64,000 nt of DNA from NCBI GenBank assembly GCA_029916745.1, contig JARXWK010000007.1:1-64000 (forward strand). Reading direction: 5' to 3'. The translations under genes and the position numbers were made by a program. The notes under the pieces are model-generated. The model was not told where the DNA came from. It worked only from the letters and a program-made list of their open reading frames with translations, and searched no databases. This document shows, one piece after another, positions 1 through 52,148 of the stretch; the first letter of the stretch is position 1, and each line of letters starts with the position of its first letter. Source of the DNA: Dysgonomonadaceae bacterium PH5-43. GTDB taxonomy: Bacteria > Bacteroidota > Bacteroidia > Bacteroidales > Azobacteroidaceae.

Positions 1-17
1 TGGGTGTTAATAGGCGC

Positions 18-48
18 TTGACAAACGCCTTTTGATTTAGTATCTTTG
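18..48 (+). promoter_or_regulatory. Promoter of Bacteroidota type inside the composite element
   Basis: TTG at 18-20 and TATCTTTG at 41-48 with a 20-base spacer fit the Bacteroidota -33/-7 promoter. The predicted transcript would start near 55 and meet the hairpin at 65-98 almost at once. The same promoter with the same spacer is found in the second copy on the minus strand at 51289-51319. Confidence 0.6.
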
Positions 49-54
49 TGTAAA

Positions 55-98
55 CAAATAGTATAAAGCTGTTAAGGGAGTCCTTAGCAGCTTTTTTT
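55..98 (+). ncRNA. Putative very short hairpin RNA, copy 1
   Basis: If the promoter at 18-48 is used, the transcript would be about 44 bases: a short leader, a 13-pair stem (AAAGCTG..TAAGG with CCTTA..CAGCTTT, one G-T pair, loop GAGT, 65-94) and a run of T residues. The hairpin looks like an intrinsic terminator, so this may be a tiny RNA or an abortive leader. No reading frame is present. The existence of the RNA is an inference from the layout and from the second copy. Confidence 0.3.
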
Positions 99-369
99 GT
101 ACTGTGTTTCACGACAATCTCAGTGTCTTTAGCTGCAAATTTCGGTATTTGTCTAAGAAGATAACACTGAGATTTTTCTATAACTCACTGTCTTTTTTCT
201 ATAACTCAATGAGTTTGCATCAATAAGTCTTTATAGCTCCCAAAACAGATAGTATGTATAAGCAAATATACAGTTAAAGATTGTAAAGCCAGGTTAAAGT
301 TGTGTTTTTGAGTCGCTGTTTAGCATATCTCAAATACAAAGATAGACTTTAATTGTTAAAATTTCGGAG

Positions 370-33773: not shown

Positions 33774-35045
33774 TTACTTTATCAAATCAAATCCAGTATA
33801 AGGGATTAATGCTTTAGGTATCTTTATTCCTTCAGGTGTTTGATGGTTTTCGAGTAGTGCAGCCATAATACGAGGAAGAGCTAAAGCACTACCATTTAGT
33901 GTGTGACAAAGTTGAGTTTTTTTGCCCTCTCCTCTGTAACGACACTTTAATCTGTTTGCCTGATAACTTTCGAAGTTAGAAACCGAGCTTACTTCCAGCC
34001 AACGCTCTTGCGCTGCCGAATATACTTCGAAGTCGAAAGTAAGAGCAGAAGTGAAACTTATGTCTCCTCCACAGAGTCTTAATATTCTCCAGGGTAATTC
34101 AAGTTTGTCTATCAGCGACTGAACGTAATCTACCATCTCGTTTAGTGATTGATAAGAATGTTCGGGTGTGTCGATACGCACAATTTCTACTTTATCGAAT
34201 TGATGAAGACGATTAAGCCCTCGAACATCTTTGCCGTAAGAGCCTGCTTCGCGGCGGAAACAAGCCGAATAAGCTGTATTCTTTATAGGAAGATCTTTTT
34301 CTTCCAATATAACATCTCTATATATGTTTGTAACAGGAACCTCTGCTGTTGGGATAAGATAAAGATCGTCGGCAGTGCTATGATACATTTGACCTTCTTT
34401 GTCGGGAAGTTGTCCTGTGCCATAAGCCGAATCCGAATTAACTAAATAAGGAGGTTGTATCTCTATATATCCAGCTTCACGAGCATTGTCTAAGAAGAAG
34501 TTTATTAATGCGCGTTGTAGTTGTGCACCTTTTTGTTTGTAAATTGGAAATCCTGCACCGGTTATCTTAACTCCAAGTTCGAAGTCGATAAGATCGTATT
34601 TCTTAGCTAAGTCCCAATGAGGCACAGCACCATCGTATAAAGTAGGAATTACTCCACCTTCTTTTTCAACAACATTATCTTCTGCGTGTTTTCCCTCTGG
34701 AACTTTATCGCAAGGGATATTAGGAATCTGACAAAGCAATTCGGTTAGCTTAGCTTCTGCATTCTTCATCTCGATTTCTAATTCTTTATTAGCCTCCTTC
34801 ATACCCGAAACTTTAGTTCGAGCAGCTTCTGCTTCCTCCTTTTTTCCTTCTTTCATTAACTGTCCGATGGAGCGCGATAGAGTGTTAAGTTCGGCAAGGT
34901 TGCTGTCTAACAGTTGTTGAGACGCTTTCCTTTTTTTATCGGTGTCAATTACTTCTGTTATGATCTTTGTGGCATCGAAATGTTTTTTAGCCAGCTTATC
35001 TATTACTTCTTGAGTGTTATCTGTTATAACTTTGAGAGTAAGCAT
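33774..35045 (-). CDS. serS: Seryl-tRNA synthetase
   Basis: A 423-residue class II synthetase. N-terminal antiparallel coiled-coil that contacts the long arm of tRNA-Ser (about 30-100), then the catalytic core with TAEVPVTNIY, FRREAGSYGKDVRGLNRLHQF (motif 2 region) and GSALALPRIMAALLENHQ (motif 3). It charges tRNA-Ser with serine. A -7 box TACCTTTG is on the minus strand at 35078-35071. No T-box leader is visible. Confidence 0.98.
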   Translation of the reverse strand: MLTLKVITDNTQEVIDKLAKKHFDATKIITEVIDTDKKRKASQQLLDSNLAELNTLSRSIGQLMKEGKKEEAEAARTKVSGMKEANKELEIEMKNAEAKLTELLCQIPNIPCDKVPEGKHAEDNVVEKEGGVIPTLYDGAVPHWDLAKKYDLIDFELGVKITGAGFPIYKQKGAQLQRALINFFLDNAREAGYIEIQPPYLVNSDSAYGTGQLPDKEGQMYHSTADDLYLIPTAEVPVTNIYRDVILEEKDLPIKNTAYSACFRREAGSYGKDVRGLNRLHQFDKVEIVRIDTPEHSYQSLNEMVDYVQSLIDKLELPWRILRLCGGDISFTSALTFDFEVYSAAQERWLEVSSVSNFESYQANRLKCRYRGEGKKTQLCHTLNGSALALPRIMAALLENHQTPEGIKIPKALIPYTGFDLIK

Positions 35046-35355
35046 TGTTGTCTGATTTTAATTGAGGGTACAAAGGTAAGGTAAAGAACTAAAAAGAAAA
35101 AACTAAAATGTAAAAGTTTTTCAAACTAAAACTTATAAGGTCTTTCTCGGCTATAACTTTAACTACATTTTAGTATCTTTAACTGTCTGAGTTCTCAGTA
35201 GCTTACATATTTTGTTTGCAAAGAGAAACTTCGAGATAATACTACCTTATGATTATTCTGTTACTCACAAATGGATAAAGTGGACGAGAAATAAAGGATT
35301 TGTTACAAATATTTACTATATATTTGTAACCTTATATTTTATTAATACAGATAAT
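35046..35355. other. Intergenic gap between serS and a T9SS-type gene
   Basis: Divergent 310-base gap. It holds the serS -7 box (TACCTTTG, minus strand 35078-35071). The plus-strand side is AT-rich with no clear -33/-7 pair; an in-frame extension of the next gene back to 35212 lacks a signal peptide and is not believed. Nothing else seen. Confidence 0.6.
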
Positions 35356-49738: not shown

Positions 49739-51043
49739 ATGGTATTAATATATTTTTCAGGAAATAAAACAAGTAGACTTAGATACATCGCCAAACATAT
49801 ATTTAATAATGTATTGGGGGTAGAGTTTGATGTTACTGATAATAAGAAGATATATTCGGAACATAAAGGTGTTTTGGTTAATTATTCCGATGAAAAAGAG
49901 TTGCCAGGCATACAAATCACACCGAACGGACTGTTGTCTGAAAGTAATGTTAGCAAACAAGCCGACTTGCATATCTCTAAATGGAAGGATATGTTTGTCT
50001 TTTTCGCTAACGATAAAGGATTGATTCCTTTTGATTTGTTTGCGGCTTCGTTTTATTTGTTGACCCTTTATGAGGAGCATTTCCCAGAGAAACTTGACGA
50101 ACACGGGCGATTTCGTCATATAGAATCGTTGCTTTACAAAAACAATGTATTAGAAAAACCTATTGTCGACCGATGGGCTTACGCTCTTAAAGATGTGTTT
50201 GAACAACAAGGTTATGATGTCTCAGGTTTTAAGTTGAGGCAATTCAGAATGATTAATACTTTTGATATTGATCATCCGTTTTTATATCGCAACAAAGGAC
50301 TTGTAAAGAATGTGGGTGGTGTGGTTAAAGACTTGCTAAAGAGGAATTTTGCAGCACTAAAAAGACGTGCTTTAGTGCAAGTTCATATTAAAGAAGACCC
50401 TTATTTTGAAGCCTTGAAAATGATTTGTGAAACCCATATGGGGCAAAATAAGCCTTATTACCTATTTGTTTTGCTGGGCGAAAGAGGAAAGTATGGAAGA
50501 ACAACGCTTTATTCTGTAAAAAGATATTACGACTACATAAAAACCTTGAAGAACGTAACGATAGGTTTGCATCCTTCGTATAAAACGTTTCGTAATTTGG
50601 AACAGTTGATGAAGGAGAAAATAAAACTCGAAAAGATTTTAGGCTATAAAGTTGGGTCTTCTCGTCAGCACTTCTTAAGAATGCAAAGCCCCGAAACCTT
50701 TCAAGAATTAAATTTGGCAGGAATAAAAGAGGACTTTTCTTTAGCTTTTGCGCACGCTCCAGGCTTTAGGTCGGGAACGGCAATACCTTATAATTTCTAT
50801 GATATAAGAAAAGATGAAGAAACGCAACTGTTTGTGCGACCAACTGTAATGATGGATTCAACATTGATAGTGCATCAAAAGCTTACTCCTCAACAAGGGT
50901 TTGCAAAGATAAGTCAATTGATAGAGGAATGTAAGAAGTCGGGGGGCGATTATCTTGGTTTATGGCACAACTCCAACCTTGCAGGCTCGAAAAAAGACAA
51001 CCCTTGGATAGAAGTTTTTGAGAGTTTTGTATCGCAACTTTAA
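49739..51043 (+). CDS. Polysaccharide deacetylase-like protein
   Basis: A 434-residue cytoplasmic-looking protein. The second half has altered NodB-type motifs: [13 protein letters not shown] (metal Asp/His in place of TFDD), [11 protein letters not shown], a conserved Arg region [10 protein letters not shown], and LGLWHNSNL near the end. The first 120 residues form a separate alpha/beta domain. Bacteroidales genomes commonly carry this family. It may deacetylate an envelope polymer, but it has no signal peptide. A -7 box TAAGTTTG is at 49703-49710; it is divergent from rmuC. Confidence 0.75.
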
Positions 51044-51120
51044 CTCTATTTTACTATGTTTAACTGTTTGTATTTTTACTCAAACTGTGCATTTTAGTAC
51101 ATACACCAACTTTTTGCGCT

Positions 51121-51228
51121 AACTCAGTGTGTTTCGGGTCGAAACTCAGTGTCTTTTATAAAAAACAAAGTGAGTTTCTGTTCGGAAAATACAGAGATTT
51201 TTCTCTAACACACAGAGGTTTTCCCATT
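51121..51228. repeat. Degenerate CTCAGTGT-type short repeats, copy 2
   Basis: Several variants of AACTCAGTGT and its inverse, including GAGATTTTTCTCTAACACAC, which matches GAGATTTTTCTATAACTCAC in copy 1 (169-188). They follow the hairpin of the composite element on the minus strand. The 77-base stretch before them (51044-51120) shows nothing recognisable. Confidence 0.5.
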
Positions 51229-51282
51229 ATAAAACACAAATGCCGCTTAGAAATAGTCCTAAGCGGCATTTGTGTTGTTTTG
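51229..51282 (-). ncRNA. Putative very short hairpin RNA, copy 2
   Basis: The promoter on the minus strand at 51319-51289 would start a transcript near 51282 that folds at once into a perfect 18-pair stem (51259-51276 with 51233-51250) with an eight-base loop, then TTTTAT. The stem sequence differs from copy 1, but position and size are kept. It may also terminate either flanking gene. An RNA product is inferred only. Confidence 0.35.
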
Positions 51283-51288
51283 CTTATG

Positions 51289-51319
51289 CAAAGATACAAT
51301 ATAGAAAGACGTTTGTCAA
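51289..51319 (-). promoter_or_regulatory. Promoter of the composite element, copy 2
   Basis: On the minus strand TTG (51319-51317) and TATCTTTG (51296-51289) with a 20-base spacer, as in copy 1 at 18-48. The shared block starts CTTGACAAACG in both. It points away from the gene that ends at 51387. Confidence 0.6.
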
Positions 51320-51386
51320 GTGCTGGTTAACATTCGTTTGCAAACGTAAATGCTGAAATGTTGAGAGTAGGGAGATAATGCTTGTT

Positions 51387-52148
51387 CTAATTTTTCTCAA
51401 TGAGGTACTTCCAAAAGCGTTTAGGCATATTTTGCCGTTGCAACCTAAGATTTTTTCGCTCATTGATAGTAACGGCTTTCAGATAATCTTTCCAAAGAGC
51501 TTGAAAGGCGCGTTCGTCTTCGTCTTGTTGTTCTTGGTTTAGCTTGCCAGATAGTATAGAAACAGGCAGCTTGTCGAAGTTTACGGTTTCTACAGAGTCG
51601 AGGTTGTAGTACAGACCGTAATTTCTTTTAGTATCGTAGATAATCCAAGGCTGGTCGGCGTATCGCTCCTTGAAAAAGTCGGAGCAAATAGGAAGAACGT
51701 TACATTTAGGATCCATAACGGCAAAGAATATTCCATCGGCAGTCTTTTGAAAACGAACAAATTGTTTAAGTCTGTTAGCTTCATTGCACACGGTTTTGTA
51801 AACTTTAGAAAGCCGAAGCACGTCATCGTCGGCGAAATTAAGTTCAATGCTTACTTTGTGTAAAAAACATTTCCTCATATAGTTGAATATATTTGTTTCC
51901 GTGTTGTCTATTTCCGACAAGAAACAAAAGTAAAGCATTTGCAGAGCCGACTTCGATAGCTTATTTCTTAATCCATTAAACACTCTGTTCGACCTATCGT
52001 CGGAAGTTGTTACTTGATGAAACTCGGAGAATAAAGGCAAATCAGCATCTTCGGCTAATACACAATCGGGAGTTTCTTTCCTTTCGAAACTATCGAATAC
52101 GCAACAAAGTAACCCTTCAAACGATTTGTCGTAGATATAATACAGCAT
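51387..52148 (-). CDS. TIGR03915-type protein (putative DNA repair partner)
   Basis: A 253-residue protein starting MLYYIYDKSFEGLLCCVFD, which together with its position next to the radical SAM gene identifies the family annotated as a probable DNA-metabolism protein (TIGR03915, related to DUF4130). The motif ILSGKLNQEQQDEDERAFQALWKDYLKAV is conserved-looking near the C-terminus. It begins six bases after the radical SAM gene on the same strand. The activity is not known; the pair almost always travels together. Confidence 0.85.
   Translation of the reverse strand: MLYYIYDKSFEGLLCCVFDSFERKETPDCVLAEDADLPLFSEFHQVTTSDDRSNRVFNGLRNKLSKSALQMLYFCFLSEIDNTETNIFNYMRKCFLHKVSIELNFADDDVLRLSKVYKTVCNEANRLKQFVRFQKTADGIFFAVMDPKCNVLPICSDFFKERYADQPWIIYDTKRNYGLYYNLDSVETVNFDKLPVSILSGKLNQEQQDEDERAFQALWKDYLKAVTINERKNLRLQRQNMPKRFWKYLIEKN

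Follow-up and report, generated by a model that had tools for sequence, protein, structure and literature searches.

The window analysed here, a stretch of 64,000 nucleotides from Dysgonomonadaceae bacterium PH5-43 (bases 1-64000 of contig C7, JARXWK010000007.1, in genome G000), carries two copies of an intergenic element in which a promoter is directly followed by a hairpin and by an array of phased palindromes. Both sites had been picked out for their common layout in an earlier sequence-only reading, and this description held: from CTTGACAAACG to CAAA the two sites are identical at 34 of 42 bases with equal spacing (counted by eye), and at both of them a strong hairpin is followed by degenerate CTCAGTGT words. 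The first site had been placed at 11-215, which located the element correctly and understated its extent, since copy 1 extends to about 301, and copy 2 spans about 51339 to 51036.

Copy 1 occupies 1..301 on the forward strand. It is matched at 1-118 (E 7.6e-19) by R1, a covariance model that was built from an alignment of 30 copies (A1) and whose E-values are rough, and at 197-301 (E 6.1e-16) by R2, a model of the right half; the length from GTTAA to GTTAAAG is 294 bp. Its left end is cut, as the window begins at contig base 1, inside this end. All parts lie on the forward strand and follow each other in a fixed order: a left GTTAAT motif (6..11, assigned from A1, with GTTAA at the left end), an exact match to the promoter pattern TTGACAAACG-N13-TATCTTTG of the sigma-ABfr type with boxes at -33 and -7 (18..48), the palindrome TTTGTGTAAACAAA over the predicted start (45..58, covarying in A1), a predicted terminator hairpin AAAGCTGTTAAGG-GAGT-CCTTAGCAGCTTT with a T tract (65..98, identified by its covarying stem and by folding), a phased array of AAACTCASTGAGTTT-like sites (116..272, recognised by autocorrelation and spacings, with pattern matches at 116, 181 and 202) and the right end GTTAAAG...GTTAAAG (273..299, one mismatch to the pattern). 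Copy 2 lies on the reverse strand at 51036..51339 (R1 E 1.1e-20, R2 E 8.1e-19) and is flanked by a DUF4130 gene (51387-52148, reverse strand) and a convergent DUF7033 gene (49739-51043, forward strand), both assigned by Pfam. Here the promoter is again an exact match (51289..51319), the palindrome over the predicted start is TTTGCATAAGCAAA (51279..51292, from covariation and a pattern search of the window), the hairpin has 19 bp and folds at -29.7 kcal/mol (51234..51275), and the right end reads GTTAAAC...GTTAAAG (51038..51064, two mismatches), all on the reverse strand.

These two sites are members of a dispersed intergenic family of about 40 copies, and the two copies counted in the sequence-only reading were therefore an undercount. 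The check proposed there, a search for further copies with the promoter pattern, gave 45 matches to TTGACAAACG-N13-TATCTTTG at three mismatches or fewer in the own genome (2.54 Mb, 46 contigs), 18 of them exact, compared to 4 matches genome-wide for a reversed control. With R1, at least 40 distinct genomic sites were found at E <= 2.1e-7 when the best 150 of 2621 candidates were scored; 30 of these are training copies and 10 lie outside the training set. All copy numbers are thus minimum values, and candidate-scored searches of this kind might overlook weak families in distant genomes. In the following, counts of context and terminators refer to 42 rows, which include the doubtful loci L114 and L115 (E 8e-5 and 1.7e-4), figures on length, spacing and identity to the 32 of these rows with a right end at four mismatches or fewer, and the covariation analysis to the 30 copies of A1 and not to all 40. 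When open reading frames (ORFs) of at least 80 aa were called mechanically, 41 of the 42 rows were intergenic, the sole exception being L082, where a 103-aa ORF overlaps on the opposite strand. Within the window alone the array palindrome was not significantly enriched (7 matches vs 3.3 expected, equalled in 9 of 100 shuffles), and the case thus rests on the genome-wide copies. Near-matches to the start palindrome were in mild excess in the window (13 vs 5.8 expected), several of them being the copies themselves, and the exact palindrome was found there in the two element copies only.

A typical copy measures about 294 bp. From left to right it consists of AA.GAATGTTAAT, TTGACAAACG, 13 variable A/T-rich bases, TATCTTTG, YGTAARCAAA, an A-rich tail and a stem of about 10-14 bp, after which come a short loop, a T tract, GTACTGT.., the array and GTTAAAGATTGTAAAAT..GTTAAAGTT. 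YGTAARCAAA together with the end of the -7 box forms the palindrome TTTGY-GTAA-RCAAA over the start site. In 38 of 42 rows the left end carries GTTAA; in a typical copy this motif reads GTTAAT, and the right end is GTTAAAG...GTTAAAG; the ends GTTAAT and GTTAAAGTT stand in direct and not in inverted order (judged by eye, the ends not having been searched systematically). The words that had been described as degenerate are present and in fact form a phased array, the unit of which is the palindrome AAACTCASTGAGTTT at 21-22 bp. Autocorrelation of the array peaks at lag 21 (0.376), with a second, lower peak at 42-43 (0.17-0.19), and 86 of 121 spacings between neighbouring palindromes amount to 21 or 22 bp. 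Measured between GTTAA and GTTAAAG, the element was 293-296 bp long in 22 of 32 copies, 271-274 bp in eight, 282 bp in one and 251 bp in one, and in 31 of the 32 this length differs by at most 2 bp from a multiple of 21 (about 252, 273 and 294 bp). By eye, whole units were gained or lost, and not always at the same place of the array. The uniformity of length is partly due to shared ancestry, the informative part being the gain and loss of whole units. Judged by their sequence, the array sites are probably bound by a protein.

A -7 box of the form TAnnTTTG, the sigma-ABfr consensus according to passages of PMC7366714, is present in 29 of the 30 aligned copies (L022 carries TGTCTTTG), with TTG 20 bases upstream; as the aligned copies were picked by the promoter pattern, this count is descriptive and not a test. 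The hairpin had been supposed to be selected for its structure and not for its sequence, and the covariation bears this out: double changes occur in 8 of the 11 pairs of the terminator stem, and 95.1% of its helix cells are paired. For both helices together, 95.6% of the cells are paired, compared to 87.7% in shuffles and 39.5-57.8% with slid partners, and 0 of 500 shuffles attained the observed paired percentage or covariation score, a test to which the caveats for related sequences apply. Among the non-Watson-Crick cells of the stem, G-U (37) was far more frequent than A-C (10), and outside the two loop-closing pairs the contrast was 25 vs 3 (p 3e-5 on the assumption of independence, which is incomplete), so that the helix looks to be maintained as RNA on the promoter's strand. 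In the start palindrome, both bases of pair 52-58 of A1 were changed in 6 of 30 copies (C-G 18, U-A 6, U-G 5, other 1). One half of this palindrome falls within the -7 box or immediately behind it, ahead of the expected start; the palindrome is therefore more simply read as a DNA site bound by a dimeric protein. A folding script found the terminator in 37 of 42 rows; it misses L110 and L111, in which hairpins are seen by eye closer to the promoter. The predicted RNAs measure 48-64 nt, and 50-55 nt in 26 of the 37.

Conservation in bits per column was highest in TTGACAAACG (1.90) and TATCTTTG (1.70), followed by TAAGCA (1.62), whereas the left GTTAA block reached 1.29, the two stem halves 1.26 and 1.46, the T tract 1.43 and the loop 0.78. 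Low values were obtained for the promoter spacer (0.90), the A-rich leader (0.92) and the sequence after the hairpin (0.54). Selection by the promoter pattern favours the promoter columns in this score, not those of the start, the stem or the T tract. The copies are old: in pairwise comparison of the 32 copies, mean identity was 64% and the best pair shared 79%, so that the conservation of promoter, start and stem does not come from recent copying. Taken together, the contrasts between segments and these identities are hard to reconcile with neutral decay of recent copies.

Conservation in related species, which had been proposed as a further check, was not seen, as R1 gave no match comparable to those of the own genome in any of 38 relatives, which include 22 members of the same genus. 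Weak matches (E <= 0.01, one or two each) in 13 of the 38, the best with E 1.2e-5, stay below the level of the family. Among 393 genomes of the order, the own included, E <= 1e-5 was reached in the own genome only; in this search stricter filters were applied and the best nine candidates were scored per genome, and the own genome gave 9 of its 40 sites. R2 matched the own genome and gave one weak match (E 1.1e-4) among 44 other genomes of the same bacterial family. By these sequence comparisons the element appears so far restricted to its own genome, comparable matches being found solely there among 39, 393 and, for the right half, 45 genomes. The exact promoter string followed by TAA occurs once in GTDB (84,980 species), in Muribaculaceae; this match (L075) was rejected as a family copy, since the promoter is an ordinary one and the family hairpin is missing there (14.1 bits). 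The exact promoter pattern had no match in IMG/VR, which leaves carriage by phages unsupported; both scans were for exact matches, and the own genome was possibly excluded from both databases. No account of the element was found in literature searches. In agreement with the earlier statement that the sites match none of 6S, SRP, RNase P and tmRNA, a scan of the window with 4227 Rfam models reached the gathering score for tRNA only, and six further loci gave 14 sub-threshold matches only.

The element is small, non-coding and dispersed (about 294 bp, about 40 copies, intergenic) and is absent from a matching site in one relative, features that it shares with miniature inverted-repeat transposable elements (MITEs). 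In this relative, G014, about 68 nt lie between the matched proteins of a DUF3078-YbeY gene pair, and no element is present, whereas in the own genome 361 nt with the element separate the two genes. The pair was present in 1 of 29 relative loci, the remaining stretches being without DUF3078. A second empty site was sought between YqeY and the methionyl-tRNA synthetase gene, which were adjacent in 0 of 29 relative loci, and in the two synteny searches, which together cover 58 relative loci, R1 gave a single weak match (L208, E 0.005) and no element otherwise. As neither target-site duplications nor young copies were found, we infer spread by transposition from the distribution and the one empty site; with some MITE features and no target-site duplication, the element is termed MITE-like only.

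Based on these data we consider it probable, at roughly 60%, that each copy makes an autonomous terminated RNA of about 50 nt, carried on a MITE-like element. RNA polymerase with the primary sigma factor would start a few bases past TATCTTTG, possibly controlled by a dimer at TTTGYGTAARCAAA; it would transcribe about 14-17 nt of A-rich 5' tail and then the hairpin, and stop, and the RNA of about 50 nt would be released. Behind this unit stands the helically phased palindrome array, probably protein-bound and closed by the GTTAAAG motifs. The MITE-like scattering probably took place after the lineage had split from its sequenced relatives, and while the element itself would now be quiet, selection would since have kept promoter, start palindrome and hairpin. 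Of the two proposals made in the sequence-only reading, a very short terminated RNA is thus retained on sequence grounds, promoter, start and hairpin being kept together; the other, a switch, is taken up below.

Several observations weigh against this interpretation. The T tract of copy 2 is weak. The A-rich leader is conserved no better than the promoter spacer (0.92 vs 0.90 bits), and its pairing with 37 hand-picked ATG starts of the window was unexceptional, shuffles being at least as good in 67 of 100 cases for the mean and in 18 of 100 for the best; both results count against a shared base-pairing seed. As to mobility, beyond the GTTAA motifs the flanks of the 32 copies shared no more k-mers than shuffled pairings, which gives no sign of a target-site duplication, and none of these copies is young, the best pair having 79% identity. 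The empty site in G014 could also be a loss in G014, and the weak matches from 13 of the 38 relatives were dismissed as noise as a group and not after individual inspection.

The nearest known systems are the FopS small RNAs (sRNAs), BrickBuilt and QMITE1. With regard to function, a paralogous family of short RNAs acting in trans like the Bacteroides FopS sRNAs is, tentatively, slightly preferred over a purely local role in cis, and the two roles are compatible with each other. Passages of PMC11697453 describe FopS of Bacteroides thetaiotaomicron as 14 paralogous sRNAs with a sigma-ABfr promoter, a single-stranded 5' stretch and a Rho-independent terminator, which are bound by the RRM protein RbpB and whose seed, there called R1, is shared with GibS. 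By sequence prediction the element has the same architecture as given in these passages, and one RRM protein, with the fold of the Bacteroides sRNA partner, is encoded in its own genome (G000:C14:67572-67781, reverse strand, L217; the only match at the search threshold, E 4.6e-24), a candidate RNA-binding partner. In contrast to FopS, which the same passages present as conserved across Bacteroidaceae with a conserved seed, the element has about 40 copies in one genome and no evident conserved seed, and in this comparison it alone has an attached phased palindrome array and a nearly fixed length. Its copies exceed the 14 FopS genes in number and bear signs of selection singly.

A local role in cis is possible as well. 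Promoter-terminator and array would then jointly act as a transcription insulator or as a site of chromosome architecture: a protein would wrap the array in steps of two helical turns, and brief transcription would keep the site open or supercoiled, while the RNA may still be made. This would fit the 21-bp steps in length (31 of 32 copies), the spacings of 21 or 22 bp (86 of 121) and the start palindrome, which pairs with a base ahead of the predicted start. Although the family is redundant some 40-fold, individual loci have retained promoter and hairpin, with a leader that is not better conserved, and this conservation copy by copy, together with the phased array, favours a local role. Shorter arrays without promoter point in the same direction. 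By eye, 18 of 20 stretches found with an array model (L137-L153 and L156 of L137-L156) are convincing; they are short, intergenic and outside the window, contain the same 21-bp palindrome and are without GTTAAAG ends. Several of them have inverted ends GTACTGTGTTACAAAAAAAC (9 matches genome-wide), which resemble the sequence right behind the hairpin of the long element, so that the latter appears to be composed of two modules, one with promoter and terminator and one with the array. However, the array-binding protein is predicted only, a bias between replication arms was not detected by GC skew (23 vs 18 of 41), and between divergent genes, where a local need is less evident, the hairpin was still found in 5 of 7 copies. 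The same skew counts led to the rejection of a replication-polar, KOPS-like element.

Unlikely, in our view, is a dispersed nucleoprotein element of an undescribed kind, in which the start-stop unit is set in an array of whole two-helical-turn steps and a protein coat or wrapped complex would lie beside each such unit. If this were true, about 40 stations per chromosome would serve as transcription-driven insulators or domain boundaries, and the shorter promoterless arrays would be secondary sites. Paralogous short RNAs and MITE-like repeats are mostly investigated separately; here a FopS-like terminated RNA unit and a phased binding array are united in one element, which provides a clean test case for how dispersed repeats turn into families of small-RNA genes or into sites that structure the chromosome in Bacteroidota.

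It is rather improbable that the family is a plain decaying MITE-like repeat, promoter and hairpin being inert remains of the end of an ancestral element. Its confinement to one genome would agree with this, as would copies without a right end or split by another MITE and the intergenic scatter next to mostly unrelated genes: the 82 flanking ORFs contain six similar pairs, one of them a pair of downstream ORFs, and in a Pfam scan of 30 of the 82, 29 had a family, of mixed kinds (among them CTP synthase, YbeY, YqeY, methionyl-tRNA synthetase, PurH, ABC-F-like proteins, a histidine kinase and a sulfatase). On these grounds a common neighbour gene family was rejected. Neutral decay, however, would affect all columns equally, and the conservation focused on promoter, start and stem therefore counts against it, as do the compensatory changes between copies that are on average 36% diverged and the lack of a target-site duplication. 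The Correia elements of Neisseria and the BIME/REP sequences of enterobacteria are likewise scattered between genes and contain promoters or protein sites, with sequences and an anatomy different from those of the element. The nearest known repeat is BrickBuilt of Porphyromonas gingivalis, which passages of PMC4596501 describe as 19 species-specific, intergenic copies with promoter activity and with 23-nt tandem repeats between a leader and a tail. Species specificity, intergenic position, units near two helical turns and a promoter (active in BrickBuilt) are common to both. According to the same passages, the 23-nt repeats of BrickBuilt number 1 to 22.8 and its ends are inverted repeats, whereas the element has a 21-22-bp palindrome unit, a near-fixed length, GTTAA ends and a terminator directly behind the promoter; 23-nt tandem repeats in variable number were not found in it. 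QMITE1 of Coxiella burnetii, given in passages of PMC5896051 as 300-400 bp long with about 50 copies and sigma-70 promoters and as a source of sRNAs, is similar in size, copy number and the possession of promoters, and shows that such elements can source sRNAs; it differs in its short direct repeats, and neither a phased array nor a promoter-terminator cassette is part of its description in these passages.

Far less probable is that the hairpin merely ends upstream transcripts and that the promoter is incidental. Of 40 rows with both neighbours visible (arrangements ++ 13, +- 13, -+ 7 and -- 7), 26 have a co-oriented upstream gene. The stop codon of this gene is located at -17 to +62 bp relative to the start of the element in 24 of the 26, sometimes within the element's left end, which gives the impression of an insertion at gene ends; the mean hairpin energy is also slightly lower with a co-oriented upstream gene (-19.7 vs -17.3 kcal/mol). 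Against a role as gene terminator only, conservation peaks in the promoter boxes (1.9 and 1.7 bits), and in 14 of the 40 rows the upstream gene points away, leaving no upstream transcript to end; the hairpin is present in 11 of these 14, and two of the three misses are doubtful weak matches. Promoter and hairpin are thus retained largely regardless of the neighbouring genes. A premature-termination switch or attenuator of the downstream gene, to which the order of promoter and hairpin had pointed in the sequence-only reading, is very unlikely, as the 42 rows divide evenly into 21 with a co-oriented and 21 with an opposed downstream gene, and no common downstream gene family was seen beyond the one similar pair of ORFs.

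Two further candidates were rejected. A relic of a tRNA or stable-RNA promoter was discarded, tRNA genes being found at 3 of 40 loci and the tRNA-Asn gene of the window having, by eye, no promoter of the family type. Integron attC sites were dropped, as the copies are dispersed and, as we assume, without attC core motifs. In the window, a lone right-end remnant without promoter was found at 35155..35226 on the reverse strand (R2 E 1.6e-6, one mismatch to the pattern); it sits upstream of the gene at 33774-35045.

Two copies of the element (L099 and L103) are interrupted by another MITE with ends ATTGCTGTCCGGTAAAACTTTAAC, and the right end of L103 was found beyond the insertion, at C6:26425-26541. 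This second MITE-like family is present in G000 at C6:27089, C15:50476, C20:46721, C3:126281, C16:61025, C27:17630, C2:82298 and C23:46639; several of its copies have internal GTTTCAT words, and two lie inside the studied element. Recurrent intergenic strings of the aactaaaaactaaaagataaaagttaa type were additionally noted at L117, L120, L121, L123 and L124.
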